Of a stretch of DNA of 64,000 bases, positions 20,409 to 26,847 are shown piece after piece. Every line of letters begins with the position of its first letter. Within the stretch, counting starts at the first letter, position 1. A program made the position numbers and the translations under genes. The stretch covers positions 434,001 through 498,000 of the forward strand of contig JAJDUF010000016.1 in NCBI GenBank assembly GCA_022826725.1, given 5' to 3'. Under the pieces are notes generated by a model, which made no database searches, was not told the origin of the DNA, and saw only the letters and a list, made by a program, of their open reading frames with translations. Origin of the DNA: Chloroflexota bacterium. Lineage in GTDB: Bacteria > Chloroflexota > UBA11872 > UBA12225 > JAJDUF01.

Positions 20409-20437
20409 TTGACGGTCCGTGAATACCGTGCTATAGT
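20409..20437 (+). promoter_or_regulatory. Sigma70-type promoter for the SAM riboswitch transcript
   Basis: TTGACG (20409-20414), 17 bp spacer, TATAGT (20432-20437), about 40 bp upstream of aptamer P1. Confidence 0.72.
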
Positions 20438-20475
20438 CACTCCGCAAGTGCAACGCTGGTGCTTTAAAACTGCAT

Positions 20476-20604
20476 ACAGTACCACTCTTATCCAGAGAGG
20501 TGGAGGGAACCGGCCCTAAGAAGCCCGGCAACCAGTCCGCACGGCGCGGACCAGGTGCCAACTCCGGCAGTGGTGTATTCCGCTGCAAGATAAGGGAGGC
20601 TGTA
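20476..20604 (+). ncRNA. SAM-I (S-box) riboswitch aptamer
   Basis: CTCTTATCCAGAGAGGTGGAGGGAACCGGCCCTAAGAAGCCCGGCAACC...GGACCAGGTGCCAACTCCGGCAG...AAGATAAGGGAG: conserved S-box core with P1 pairing (CTTATC/GATAAG, TACAG/CTGTA). Confidence 0.95.
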
Positions 20605-20618
20605 CCACTACACGGTGA

Positions 20619-20654
20619 AGCCCCTCGTCTGGAGACGGGGGCTTTTGTTTTTTG
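20619..20654 (+). terminator. Rho-independent terminator, riboswitch expression platform
   Basis: AAGCCCCTCGTCTGGAGACGGGGGCTTTTGTTTTTTG: GC hairpin followed by T tract directly after the aptamer. Confidence 0.88.
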
Positions 20655-20799
20655 TGCAGCGCATCCGTACCGCTGACCAACGCTCGCCTGACCGGCGACA
20701 AACGGATGCTCGGCTACCGCCACGGCCCCCGGCAGTCGGAGTGGCGTGTAGCGCTGGTGCCAGCATTGCTCAACTCTCGAAGCGAGGATCACGATAGCT

Positions 20800-22080
20800 A
20801 TGGAAAATGGGCGTCTCGGTGGATTGCAATGTCGGGAATGCGGACGCACGTATCCCATCGAGCCAATCCACGTTTGCGACTTCTGCTTTGGCCCGCTCGA
20901 CGTGACCTACGATTATCCGGCGCTGCGGCAAACGCTCTCCCGCGAGACCATCGAGCGCGGTCCGCTCTCGCTCTGGCGCTACTGGCCTCTCTTGCCGGTC
21001 GAGCGCCCCAGCGAAGACGACGGCCATCGCGTGGGCTTCACCCCGCTCCAGCGCGCGCGCAACCTCGGCAAGGCGCTGGGCTTGAAGAACCTCTGGATCA
21101 AGAACGACAGTGTGAACCCCAGCTATTCCTTCAAAGATCGCGTGGTCGCAGTGGCGATCAAGAAAGCGCGCGAATTCGGCTTTGCGACATTTGCGTGTGC
21201 ATCCACCGGAAACCTCGCCGGCGCCGTGGCGGCTGCCGCTGCCCGTGAAGGGATGGCGGCCTACGTGTTCCTGCCCGGCGACACCGAGGAAAGCAAGCTG
21301 GTTCACGCCCGGTCGTATGGTGCCCAGCTCGTCGCTGTCAACGGCTCCTACGATGATGTGAACCGTCTGTGTAGCGAGTTGGCCGACGCCTACCGCTGGG
21401 CGTTCTGCAACATCAACATGCGGCCCTACTACTCCGAGGGGAGTAAATCGCTCGCTTTCGAGGTGACCGAGCAGCTCGGCTGGGCCTTGCCCGATCACGT
21501 GGTCGCGCCGGTCGCCTCCGGCTCGCTCGTGACCAAGCTCCATAAGGGCTTTGGCGAGCTACAGAAGGTCGGATTGGTCGCCGAGGGCAGTGTCCGCATC
21601 TCCGCGGCTCAGGCCGAGGGCTGCGCTCCGGTAGCGGAGGCGTTCTTGGCCGGCCGCGAGGCGGTGCGGCCCGTGCGGCAGCCGGACACCATTGCCAAAT
21701 CGCTGGCTATCGGTAACCCGGCCGACGGCTACTACGTCATCCGTATCGTCAAGGAGACAGGCGGGAGCATGACGATCAGCAGCAACGAGGACATCGCGGC
21801 GGCGATCAAGCTGCTGGCGGAGACGGAAGGCATCTTCACCGAAACGGCCGGTGGCGTCACGATCTCCAGCCTGAAGCAGTTGGTGGCCAGCGGCGTGGTG
21901 CAGCCCGACGAGCGCGTGGTGGCCTACATCACGGGCAACGGTCTCAAGACGTTGGAGGCGGTCGAGTCAGTGGCGCGGCAGCCGGTCCACGTTGACGCGA
22001 CGATCGGGTCGTTCGAAGGCACGCTCGGCCTCACGCCGCCGAGCACGCCGGTCGGCGCCGCGCCGGCGCTGGTAGAGTGA
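20800..22080 (+). CDS. thrC: Threonine synthase-family PLP enzyme (N-terminal zinc ribbon)
   Basis: CRECGRTYPIEPIHVCDFCFGPLDVTYDY; NPSYSFKDRVVAVAIKKAREFG; CASTGNLAGAVAAAAAREG. Family call firm; substrate not proven. Confidence 0.9.
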   Translation: MENGRLGGLQCRECGRTYPIEPIHVCDFCFGPLDVTYDYPALRQTLSRETIERGPLSLWRYWPLLPVERPSEDDGHRVGFTPLQRARNLGKALGLKNLWIKNDSVNPSYSFKDRVVAVAIKKAREFGFATFACASTGNLAGAVAAAAAREGMAAYVFLPGDTEESKLVHARSYGAQLVAVNGSYDDVNRLCSELADAYRWAFCNINMRPYYSEGSKSLAFEVTEQLGWALPDHVVAPVASGSLVTKLHKGFGELQKVGLVAEGSVRISAAQAEGCAPVAEAFLAGREAVRPVRQPDTIAKSLAIGNPADGYYVIRIVKETGGSMTISSNEDIAAAIKLLAETEGIFTETAGGVTISSLKQLVASGVVQPDERVVAYITGNGLKTLEAVESVARQPVHVDATIGSFEGTLGLTPPSTPVGAAPALVE

Positions 22081-22125
22081 GCCGGTGGAGCGACGGCGGA
22101 AACCTCGCAACAAAGGAGCAGCTTG

Positions 22126-22401
22126 ATGGCAGTGACGGTGCGGATACCTACTCCCCTGCGGCAGCTTGCCGGTGGCGCCGCCGCAGTGACGGCCGAGGGC
22201 GCGACGGTTGGCGGGGTGCTCGACGATATGGAGCGCCAGCATCCGGGGTTCAAGGAGCGCCTGTTCGACGAGCAGGGCACGCTGCGCCGGTTCGTCAATA
22301 TCTACGTCGGTGGTGAGGACATCCGCTTCCTCGACGACCTCGACACCGCCCTGGAAACCGGACAGGAAGTGTCCATCGTCCCCGCCGTCGCTGGGGGGTG
22401 A
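22126..22401 (+). CDS. MoaD/ThiS family ubiquitin-like sulfur carrier protein
   Basis: VTVRIPTPLRQLAGGAAAVTAEGATVGGVLDDMERQHPGFKERLFDEQGTLRRFVNIYVGGEDIRFLDDLDTALETGQEVSIVPAVAGG with C-terminal GG. Confidence 0.93.
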   Translation: MAVTVRIPTPLRQLAGGAAAVTAEGATVGGVLDDMERQHPGFKERLFDEQGTLRRFVNIYVGGEDIRFLDDLDTALETGQEVSIVPAVAGG

Positions 22402-22408
22402 TCGTTTA

Positions 22409-22488
22409 GCCCCCACCCCGACCCTCCCCCGTTGTGACGGGGGGGAACACACCTGTCCCTCTGCGGAGCGGGGGACCATAGGGTGGCC
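22409..22488 (+). repeat. Composite two-hairpin REP-like element, copy A
   Basis: cccccaccccgaccctcccccgttgtgacggggg...gtccctctgcggagcgggggaccatagggtggcc; inverted counterpart at 25546-25630. Confidence 0.8.
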
Positions 22489-23283: not shown

Positions 23284-24105
23284 ATGTTTACCCGGAGACT
23301 CACGGAGGACCAACGGCAGCAATGGGAGCGCGATGGCTACTTTGTGCTGCCGGACGCGCTGACATCCCAGGAGATAGCCAGTCTCACGCAGGCGTTGGAT
23401 CAGCTCTATCAACGGCACGTCGTAGGCAACCCGGAGGCGGACGCGGCGAAAGGGATGGACCGGCGCAACGTGATGGAGGACGACGATGCCTTTGTCGAGC
23501 TGATGGACCACCCCGGTATCTTGGGCGTCGTGGTGGACCTGCTCGGCCCCTACATTCAGTTGAGCATGTCCGAGGCCGTCATCCGCTTGCCCGACCCGGA
23601 ATTCAAGGGCTACATCCATACCGACGGGGGGCAGGCCCTTCAGCATATCCGGCTCAGTGATACAAGCTGGCCGCTCCAACTGAAGATCCAATACTTCCTG
23701 ACCGACGTGCTTGAGCCGAACGGCGGCAACTTTACGCTGGTGCCGGGGAGCCACCGGCAGGCGTTCCCGGAGGAAGGGCTGCCCGACGGCCCGGAGTCAC
23801 CGGGCACCGTGCAGCTCTCCGTCAAAGCCGGCGACGCGGCGATCTTCACCCACTCCATCTGGCACGGCCCGGCGCGGAACCTGTCGGGCAAGGCCCGCAA
23901 GACACTGATTTACTGCTACAGCCAGCAGTGCTTTCGCCCCTTCGACTACGAGCGTCCCTCACCAGAGCTGTTGGCACGCTGCACACCGCGCCAGCGGCGG
24001 TTGTTGGGTGACCTCGGCGCGGACTGGCGTCCGGGCGCCTACTTCTACTCGCCGGCGGATCAGGTCGAGGTGCTGACGGGCGCAGCGCCCCCGGCCGAGA
24101 GTTGA
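23284..24105 (+). CDS. Phytanoyl-CoA dioxygenase (PhyH) family protein, copy 1
   Basis: LTEDQRQQWERDGYFVLPDALTSQEI...YIHTDGGQALQHI...FLTDVLEPNGGNFTLVPGSHRQ...DAAIFTHSIWHGPARNLSGKARKTLIYCY. Confidence 0.92.
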   Translation: MFTRRLTEDQRQQWERDGYFVLPDALTSQEIASLTQALDQLYQRHVVGNPEADAAKGMDRRNVMEDDDAFVELMDHPGILGVVVDLLGPYIQLSMSEAVIRLPDPEFKGYIHTDGGQALQHIRLSDTSWPLQLKIQYFLTDVLEPNGGNFTLVPGSHRQAFPEEGLPDGPESPGTVQLSVKAGDAAIFTHSIWHGPARNLSGKARKTLIYCYSQQCFRPFDYERPSPELLARCTPRQRRLLGDLGADWRPGAYFYSPADQVEVLTGAAPPAES

Positions 24106-24718: not shown

Positions 24719-25540
24719 ATGTCTATGCGGAGGCTCACCGAAGCGGAGCGGCGCCAGTGGGGGCGCGACGGCTACCTGGTCGTGAAAGGAGCACTTACAC
24801 CGGGTGAGGTGAACCGGTGCATCCAAGCGGTGGATGACCTCTATGCGCGGTACGTGGCGCCGAATAACGACGGCGGTCCCCAGCGCGGGATGGGTCGCCG
24901 GAACATCTACGCGGAGAACGATGTCTTCATTGACATGATAGACCATCCAGGCACCTTTGGCTTGGTGCTGGACCTGATGGGTTCGTACATCGGGTGCAGC
25001 GTCGCGCAGGTGACCATGCGAACGCTCGATCCGAGCTACAAGGGGTATATCCACCCCGACGGCGGCGAGGCGCTGGAACAGATTCGCGTGACGGAGTCGA
25101 GCCTGCCGCTGCAAATCAAGATTCAGTACTTCCTGACACCGCTCCCGGAGCCGAACATGGGCAACTTCATCGTCTTTCCGGGCAGCCACCTGCGGCCCTG
25201 GCCGGAGGAGCGGCTACCCGCCGGGACTGATACGCCGGGCGGCGTCCCCTTGTGTGTCGAGGCCGGCGACGCCGTCATCTTCCCGCACGCGCTCTGGCAC
25301 GGGCCGGGACCGAACCTGTCCGACCAAATCCGCAAGACGCTGATCTACCGCTATAGCCAGCTATTCATGCAGCCGTGGGACTTCGACCAGGCTACGCCAG
25401 AGCTACTAGCCCGGTGTACGCCGCGCCAACGGCGGCTCTTGGGGGAGGTGGGCGACTGGCGCCCCGGCACCTACTATCGCAACCCCAGCCCCGCCGACCA
25501 GGCTGCGCTCATGGAAGGAACAGCCGCAGCGGGGTCGTAG
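24719..25540 (+). CDS. Phytanoyl-CoA dioxygenase (PhyH) family protein, copy 2
   Basis: LTEAERRQWGRDGYLVVKGALTPGEV...YIHPDGGEALEQI...FLTPLPEPNMGNFIVFPGSHLRPWPEE...GDAVIFPHALWHGPGPNLSDQIRKTLIYRYSQ. Confidence 0.92.
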   Translation: MSMRRLTEAERRQWGRDGYLVVKGALTPGEVNRCIQAVDDLYARYVAPNNDGGPQRGMGRRNIYAENDVFIDMIDHPGTFGLVLDLMGSYIGCSVAQVTMRTLDPSYKGYIHPDGGEALEQIRVTESSLPLQIKIQYFLTPLPEPNMGNFIVFPGSHLRPWPEERLPAGTDTPGGVPLCVEAGDAVIFPHALWHGPGPNLSDQIRKTLIYRYSQLFMQPWDFDQATPELLARCTPRQRRLLGEVGDWRPGTYYRNPSPADQAALMEGTAAAGS

Positions 25541-26847
25541 GGGGCTGGACCACCTATGGTCCCCCCGCTGCGGCGGGGGGACGGTTTAGCTCCCTCCCCC
25601 GTCGCAACGGGGGAGGGTTGGGGTGGGGGCTGCTGCGTGCGCGCCCATTCGTCGAGGACGGCGATGTAGTAGGCCACGCCAACGGGGAGCGCGGCCTCGT
25701 CGAGACTGAACCGGGCACTGTGGCCGGTGGGACGCTCTTCGAGCGGGATGCTTGGCACGCCGACGCCCAAGGTGGCGAAGCAGCCGGGGCGCTGCTCCAG
25801 AAAATACGCAAAGTCCTCGGCGCCCAGCACCGGCTCCGCCTCCACCACCTGGGACTCGCCGAGCGCGCGGATCGCTGCCCGCTCGGACAAGGCAGTCATC
25901 GCCGCATCGTTCACCAGCACCGGGTACCCCCAGGCATAGTCGAGCGTGGCCTCGGCACCGAAGCCGGCGGCGATGCCTTGCGCCAGAGACTCGATGCGCT
26001 GCGGCATGGCATCGCGTAGCTCCGGCACAAGGGTGCGGACAGTACCCGTCATCACCACCTCGTCGGGAATGATGTTGTCCTTGGTCCCGCCGTGAATGGT
26101 GGCAACGGTGACGACGGCGGCGTTGGTTGGCGGCGCTTGCCGGCTGACGACCGCTTGCAGGGCAGTGACAACGTGCGCCGCGACGACCACCGGGTCAACG
26201 GTACGGTGGGGCCAGGCGGCATGGCCGCCACAACCGCGAATAGTCAGCGTAAAGTCATCCGCCGCGGCGCTACGGGCACCCACCGCCAGCCCAACCGTGC
26301 CCGTATCCAGCAGCGGCGACTGGTGAAGGCCGAAGACCGCTGCCACCGGCGGGCTATTGAGCACGCCGGCCTCGATCATCCCCAATGCACCGCCCGGTTC
26401 CTGCTCCTCGGCTGGTTGAAACAGCAGCACGACCGGCCCGACCAGGCTACGGGGATGGTCGCGCTCGACATGGCGCAGTGCGGCGGCGGTGGCGAGCAAG
26501 ATGGCGGTGTGGGCATCGTGGCCGCAGGCGTGCATCACTCCCGGACGCTGCGACTGCCAGGGTAAGTTGGTCGCCTCCTCCAGCGGTAGCGCATCCATAT
26601 CGGCCCGCAGCGCGACGGCCGGGCCGGGCCGGTCGGCGCCGAGCACCGCGACAACACCGTGCTCGCCGGGCCGGCCGACGCCGATCCGTGGCTCTAGGTC
26701 GAGCGAGCGGAGTTGCTCGGCAACGTACCGGGCAGTCTCGACTTCCTGGTAACTCAGCTCCGGATGCCGATGGAGCCAACGGTAGGCTTCGCTTGCGTAG
26801 CCGGCCTGGGCGTCGGCCAGCGCCCGGATCGTATCAACGTCCATCAT
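25474..26847 (-). CDS. M20 family amidohydrolase (N-acyl-amino acid hydrolase/hippurate hydrolase-like)
   Basis: LSYQEVETARYVAEQLRSL; MHACGHDAHTAILL; LLFQPAEEQEPGGALGMIEAGVL; LGAEDFAYFLEQRPGCFATLGVG. C-terminal ~50 aa runs through a repeat. Confidence 0.92.
   Translation of the reverse strand: MMDVDTIRALADAQAGYASEAYRWLHRHPELSYQEVETARYVAEQLRSLDLEPRIGVGRPGEHGVVAVLGADRPGPAVALRADMDALPLEEATNLPWQSQRPGVMHACGHDAHTAILLATAAALRHVERDHPRSLVGPVVLLFQPAEEQEPGGALGMIEAGVLNSPPVAAVFGLHQSPLLDTGTVGLAVGARSAAADDFTLTIRGCGGHAAWPHRTVDPVVVAAHVVTALQAVVSRQAPPTNAAVVTVATIHGGTKDNIIPDEVVMTGTVRTLVPELRDAMPQRIESLAQGIAAGFGAEATLDYAWGYPVLVNDAAMTALSERAAIRALGESQVVEAEPVLGAEDFAYFLEQRPGCFATLGVGVPSIPLEERPTGHSARFSLDEAALPVGVAYYIAVLDEWARTQQPPPQPSPVATGEGAKPSPRRSGGTIGGPAPYDPAAAVPSMSAAWSAGLGLR
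25546..25630 (-). repeat. Composite two-hairpin REP-like element, copy B (inverted)
   Basis: ggaccacctatggtccccccgctgcggcggggggacggtttagctccctcccccgtcgcaacgggggagggttggggtgggggc; reverse complement aligns with copy A. Confidence 0.8.

Follow-up and report, generated by a model that had tools for sequence, protein, structure and literature searches.

The window analysed here, a 64,000-nucleotide stretch of a Chloroflexota genome, carries between positions 20409 and 22401 of its forward strand a regulatory leader followed by two genes, metM and metO. The leader begins with a sigma70-type promoter-like site at 20409-20437 (TTGACG-17-TATAGT, with a TG before the second hexamer), which is a consensus match only, scoring 10 out of 12 in a scan that returned 2 sites on both strands versus 0.3 expected in shuffled sequences. 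At a distance of 48 nt it is followed by a SAM-I (S-box) riboswitch aptamer at 20485-20596, which covers the full RF00162 model (positions 1-108) with 83.4 bits (E 3.3e-18), almost double the gathering score of 44.4, and is the sole SAM match in the entire genome. An earlier sequence-only reading had listed the promoter, the S-box aptamer, a terminator, a thrC-family gene and, 45 nt further on, a sulfur carrier ending in GG; all of these are present, with coordinates right to within a few bases, and the Rfam search which it proposed for the leader returned the aptamer as expected.

From the 3′ end of the aptamer onwards, two alternative structures can be drawn. An intrinsic terminator at 20617-20653 consists of a 12-bp hairpin (20617-20645; -19.5 kcal/mol) overlapping a U tract (20643-20653), while a predicted antiterminator helix at 20588-20630 (ViennaRNA fold of 20585-20633, -16.6 kcal/mol; duplex -18.5) pairs 20588-20606 with 20614-20630, which takes the 3′ strand away from P1 and the 5′ arm away from the terminator. 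The terminator scan taken alone is not above chance (1 found versus 1.4 expected), and the assignment is supported by folding energy and by recurrence, as the hairpin and the U run are shared by the congener and by relatives of the same order. The U-run heuristic works in the window's order and not in families f3-f5 (15/28 loci), so that the expression platform may differ there. Having an aptamer above the gathering score, a position 5′ of a methionine/SAM gene, and a terminator and antiterminator predicted to be mutually exclusive, the leader displays the features of a SAM-I riboswitch, and from its sequence and predicted structure we infer an attenuation-type switch: at low SAM, the nascent leader would form the antiterminator and metM-metO would be transcribed, while at high SAM closure of the aptamer P1 would let the terminator form and transcription stop.

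The first gene, metM (20800-22080), codes for a 426-aa PLP enzyme of the threonine-synthase family, which tree and motif place in the MetM clade as a predicted O-phosphohomoserine-dependent homocysteine synthase. Its product scores 277.8 bits with TIGR00260 (cut-off 167), and 43 bits with the cysKM model, far below the cut-off of 344, so it does not qualify as the CysM-type partner known from CysO/CysM synthesis. The N-terminus contains a Cys4 zinc-ribbon-like segment, to which, rather than to a true NinF protein, we ascribe a Pfam match to NinF. The second gene, metO (22126-22401), starts 45 nt past the metM stop and codes for a 91-aa carrier of the ThiS/MoaD fold, which ends in AVAGG and is recognised by PF02597 and the SAMP1/MoaD models. 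Its top solved relative is M. tuberculosis CysO (3dwg_C; E 1e-22, 53.8% identity); since the nearest relatives are CysO and not Moco MoaD, a Moco role, which the sequence-only reading had named as potentially fatal to its proposal, is rejected. Elsewhere in the window, a C-rich repeat, CCCCCACCCCRACCCTCCCC, occurs just past genes at 22410-22429 and, on the reverse strand, at 25610-25629 (0.04 expected by chance), and looks like an interspersed element. By eye, the ORFs at 23284-24105 and 24719-25540, each 273 aa long and phytanoyl-CoA dioxygenase-like, resemble one another and are probably a local duplication.

The genome contains four ThrC-family proteins above the TIGR00260 cut-off, of which the window protein scores highest. 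The sequence-only reading had asked whether a riboswitch-free thrC exists elsewhere, and one does: the three further family members (listed under C3, L003, L004 and L005) include one, L003, that alone among them keeps the canonical ThrC motif, while L004 and L005 fall into other subfamilies. MetM orthologues could be identified in 45 of 61 relatives at 54-96% identity, separated by a clean gap from other paralogues, which reach 38% at most. In a tree of 60 proteins, a branch with SH-aLRT support of 100 sets the 32 MetM rows apart from five solved ThrCs, with which L003 is grouped (support 99). The MetM clade includes Nostoc-type homologues and a MetM from Nonomuraea, the tree's only reference for the Streptomyces albulus type; a search of plasmid records for a Streptomyces MetM yielded none, the best match being this Nonomuraea orthologue, to which the window protein is about 52% identical.

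The two clades differ at the putative phosphate site. The motif NSxNxxRxEGQK of the five solved ThrCs is replaced by NxNxRPxYxEGSK in the MetM clade, and the window protein reads N-I-N-M-R-P-Y-Y-S-E-G-S-K, while L003 retains the ThrC form. Across 111 MetM sequences, N206, R208, Y211, S215, L139, V116, S301 and L302 are fixed at about 100%, the corresponding ThrC residues (five solved ThrCs plus L003) being S, N, R, Q, T, M, A and I, respectively. In Thermus ThrC, S155 and R160, together with their neighbours, contact the substrate phosphate, so the exchanged motif probably gives MetM a different active site.

We also surveyed the methionine pathway content of the genome (4.14 Mb in 23 contigs, 96.7% complete). 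Its assignment to Chloroflexota is borne out by the same-order relative G004, whose sequence at this locus (L127) matches that of “Chloroflexi bacterium UBA2235” (L058) with 100% identity across 4.2 kb. A profile search with TIGR01392 found no MetX, and neither this genome nor its congener yielded a PF01053 enzyme of the MetB/MetY/MetZ type at E 1e-20. The PF01053 matches in the genome are partial and weak; just one, at 29.5 bits, passes the cut-off, and its sequence looks like a class V aminotransferase rather than MetY. HcyBio (DUF39, PF01837) is likewise absent, being found among the 61 genomes only in G047 and G059. The sequence-only reading had suggested looking for missing metX, metY and metZ, and the gap is indeed there; because MetX, a true PF01053 enzyme and HcyBio are all lacking, MetM emerges as the sole candidate for homocysteine formation among the families searched in this 23-contig genome (TIGR01392, PF01053 and PF01837). 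The steps on either side are accounted for: a homoserine kinase, thrB (234 bits, cut-off 168), is predicted to supply O-phosphohomoserine, and two homocysteine methyltransferase-type proteins are present. On contig C13, homocysteine S-methyltransferase-like and SAM-dependent methyltransferase-like domains seem by eye to be fused in a 597-aa ORF (L238:679-2472, reverse strand).

The arrangement recurs in relatives, in line with the co-occurrence survey that the sequence-only reading had called for. A SAM-I aptamer lies 5′ of metM, on the same strand and 80-695 nt away, in 41 of the 45 relatives with MetM, and MetO is encoded directly 3′ of metM in all 31 loci checked. Of the remaining four, two are truncated where their contigs stop, a T-box takes the place of SAM-I in G058, and in G013 no upstream element was found. 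In G045, G050 and G051, which lack MetM, SAM-I lies 135-218 nt before a PF01053 gene. Across the 61 genomes MetM and PF01053 enzymes are anticorrelated (both in 10, MetM only in 35, PF01053 only in 12, neither in 4; Fisher P 0.0005, a statistic that ignores kinship and is uncorrected for shared ancestry); HcyBio is present in two of the four that lack both. The ten relatives that hold both enzymes count against a homocysteine-forming role of MetM.

The strongest evidence independent of SAM-I comes from G058. Here (L053:709-3981) thrS and metM are divergent, each preceded by a T-box, and metM heads an operon of the order metM-metO-thrB. When its register is calibrated against the adjoining thrS T-box, whose specifier is ACC (Thr), the metM T-box has AUG as its specifier and is on this reading methionine-specific. 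By sequence, the metM-metO-thrB operon would bring together the enzyme that produces O-phosphohomoserine and the one that consumes it; thrB adjoins metM in L177 and L165 as well.

Taken together, clade, motif, pathway gaps and regulation make it very probable that metM and metO form an operon under SAM-I riboswitch control, whose products are predicted to make homocysteine from O-phosphohomoserine, much as the sequence-only reading had proposed when it paired a carrier thiocarboxylate with a homocysteine-forming “thrC”; none of the genomic findings that it had named as counter-evidence turned up. In the mechanism that we envisage, a MoeZ/ThiF-type enzyme would activate the C-terminal GG of MetO by adenylation and turn it into a thiocarboxylate, a part that the carrier-ThiF fusion encoded on contig C3 could play, and MetM would bind O-phosphohomoserine supplied by the homoserine kinase. 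A PLP-dependent gamma-replacement would follow, probably by way of a vinylglycine quinonoid like that of ThrC, with the carrier sulfur added instead of water. The Streptomyces MetM reportedly uses O-phosphohomoserine as well, and thiocarboxylated MetO is said to be its sulfur donor. The product may be homocysteine itself or a MetO-homocysteine adduct, from which a JAMM peptidase would free it as in the CysO and HcyS routes; homocysteine methyltransferase would then convert homocysteine into methionine, and threonine would be made by the separate canonical ThrC. The sequence-only reading had offered the route as a candidate novelty, which it is not: the MetM/MetO route was described from Streptomyces in 2024 (Hasebe et al., as cited in PMC12172450), and the window represents a well-supported further case.

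How far MetM may have kept the activity of its relatives is less clear-cut. MetM could be bifunctional, yielding both threonine and homocysteine from O-phosphohomoserine, with SAM gating the branch between methionine and threonine. This alternative overlaps the main explanation and has an experimental counterpart, since the “ThrC” of Microcystis aeruginosa, which belongs to the MetM clade and shares 51.6% identity with the S. albulus enzyme, converted O-phosphohomoserine into threonine in vitro and also acted as a threonine deaminase, and its overexpression in cells brought no rise in methionine (PMC12172450). A threonine-synthase side activity of MetM is possible for this reason, and the window protein does exceed the TIGR00260 cut-off for ThrC. 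Set against it are the replaced NSxNxxRxEGQK signature, the canonical ThrC (L003) in the same genome, and the SAM-I and Met T-box elements tying metM to methionine, and we regard bifunctionality as rather unlikely. The same replaced signature and the Met-specific T-box on an orthologue disfavour the other option of the sequence-only reading, in which SAM gates a true ThrC.

An ordinary threonine synthase next to a carrier that serves cysteine or cofactor synthesis is very improbable, even though the family models do say threonine synthase and the carrier does resemble CysO. Clade, motif and riboswitch speak against it; moreover, the genome possesses its own CysO-CysM pair on contig C22 and, on contig C3, a cluster of a regulator, a CysK/M-like enzyme, a carrier-ThiF fusion, a threonine dehydratase-like protein and a JAMM peptidase, so cysteine has other carriers, and without MetM no recognised homocysteine route would be left. 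In the C3 fusion (L121:2333-3670), joining the carrier to a ThiF/MoeB-type adenylyltransferase leaves its GG internal. Least probable of all is that MetM and MetO make homocysteine from O-acetyl- or O-succinylhomoserine: the HcyS route of Wolinella provides a precedent with O-acetylhomoserine, yet searches with TIGR01392 and PF01053 found neither MetX nor a MetY-type enzyme here, and it is thrB that adjoins metM in L053, L177 and L165.

Our scan for MetM/MetO loci across genomes yielded 80 named loci in Chloroflexota, Actinomycetota (mainly Acidimicrobiia), Nitrospirota, cyanobacteria, NC10, Omnitrophota, Planctomycetota and archaea. In 73 of them metO lies within 600 nt downstream of metM, and SAM-I is present in 28, including 15 of the 16 from Actinomycetota. 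Many Acidimicrobiia have a mere 11-30 nt between the end of the aptamer and the start of the protein match, a spacing that suggests translational control. In Nitrospirota and Nitrospinota the order is ThiF, metM, metO, NIL and a second ThiF, followed in nearly all cases by JAMM (a near-complete set for carrier activation, in L154, L157, L159, L160, L163, L164, L170, L171, L174, L178, L180, L189 and L204); such flanking ThiF and JAMM genes would fit carrier activation and product release. A planctomycete locus (L165:446-4248) has SAM-I about 2.5 kb upstream, then thrB and metM; no metO was found near metM, and its carrier must therefore be encoded elsewhere.

Of the 80 named loci, 44 have a further small gene beside metM-metO, whose product of about 80 aa is a stand-alone NIL domain (PF09383). 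This NIL gene is located between the two genes in Dehalococcoidia and others (L130, L131, L134, L137, L142-L145, L147, L149 and others), after metO in Nitrospirota and Nitrospinota (L154, L157, L160, L163 and so on), and before metM in NC10 (L140, L182, L203). Since the window's order lacks the gene altogether, NIL cannot be essential everywhere, and since the four NIL sequences examined in full contain no cysteine, sulfur carriage by NIL is unlikely; our guess is a role in ligand sensing or docking. NIL also belongs to the DUF39/NIL-ferredoxin homocysteine route (PMC5764234), and our literature search found no report of its association with metM-metO. Tentatively, and as a possibility that we would not favour outright, the window may be among the simplest forms of an old and widespread homocysteine machine under SAM-I or Met T-box control, with further parts elsewhere: a ThiF activator, a JAMM peptidase, and NIL, probably as a methionine- or substrate-sensing or docking subunit, which would be integral, and hitherto undescribed, in Nitrospirota, Nitrospinota, NC10 and many Dehalococcoidia, and would have been lost in the window's order.

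As annotation pipelines label MetM a threonine synthase, genomes of this kind look like methionine auxotrophs, probably wrongly. The clade signature, with SAM-I or a Met T-box in front and a carrier behind, should permit easy re-annotation in Chloroflexota, Acidimicrobiia, Nitrospirota, cyanobacteria, NC10, Omnitrophota and some archaea. For Acidimicrobium ferrooxidans, for instance, Price et al. 2018 (PMC5764234) could match homocysteine formation to none of the known routes; because loci from other Acidimicrobiales carry SAM-I, metM and metO, MetM/MetO offers a candidate answer.

Comparison with known systems shows how the parts are shared. MetM resembles ThrC in its fold, its PLP-lysine region SFKDR and its expected substrate, O-phosphohomoserine, and differs in the phosphate-site motif and at seven or more further positions, the two forming separate clades. 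With the CysO/CysM/Mec system of M. tuberculosis the locus has in common the related carrier and the thiocarboxylate logic, but its PLP enzyme is of the ThrC rather than the CysM type, it is under SAM regulation, and separate CysO/CysM genes exist in the genome. Wolinella carries out carrier-dependent homocysteine synthesis using O-acetylhomoserine; this HcyS/HcyD/HcyF-MetY system likewise forms homocysteine via a carrier, but relies on a MetY-type PF01053 enzyme and an acylated homoserine, and no PF01053 enzyme was found here. The Microcystis aeruginosa ThrC, a MetM homologue by its authors' BLAST, and the MetO-like protein adjacent to it share the gene arrangement, in contrast to which stand the lack of a SAM riboswitch and the threonine synthase and deaminase activities found by the authors (PMC12172450). 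The closest counterpart is MetM/MetO of S. albulus, where a threonine-synthase homologue makes homocysteine, the carrier MetO is encoded nearby, and a SAM riboswitch lies upstream of metM (Hasebe et al. 2024, Appl Environ Microbiol 90:e01247-24, as described in PMC12172450). On that description, the two loci agree in a ThrC-like enzyme followed by a carrier gene, a SAM riboswitch before metM and a genome without a canonical homocysteine route (here as judged by TIGR01392, PF01053 and PF01837), and differ in the host, which is an actinomycete there and a member of the Chloroflexota here.
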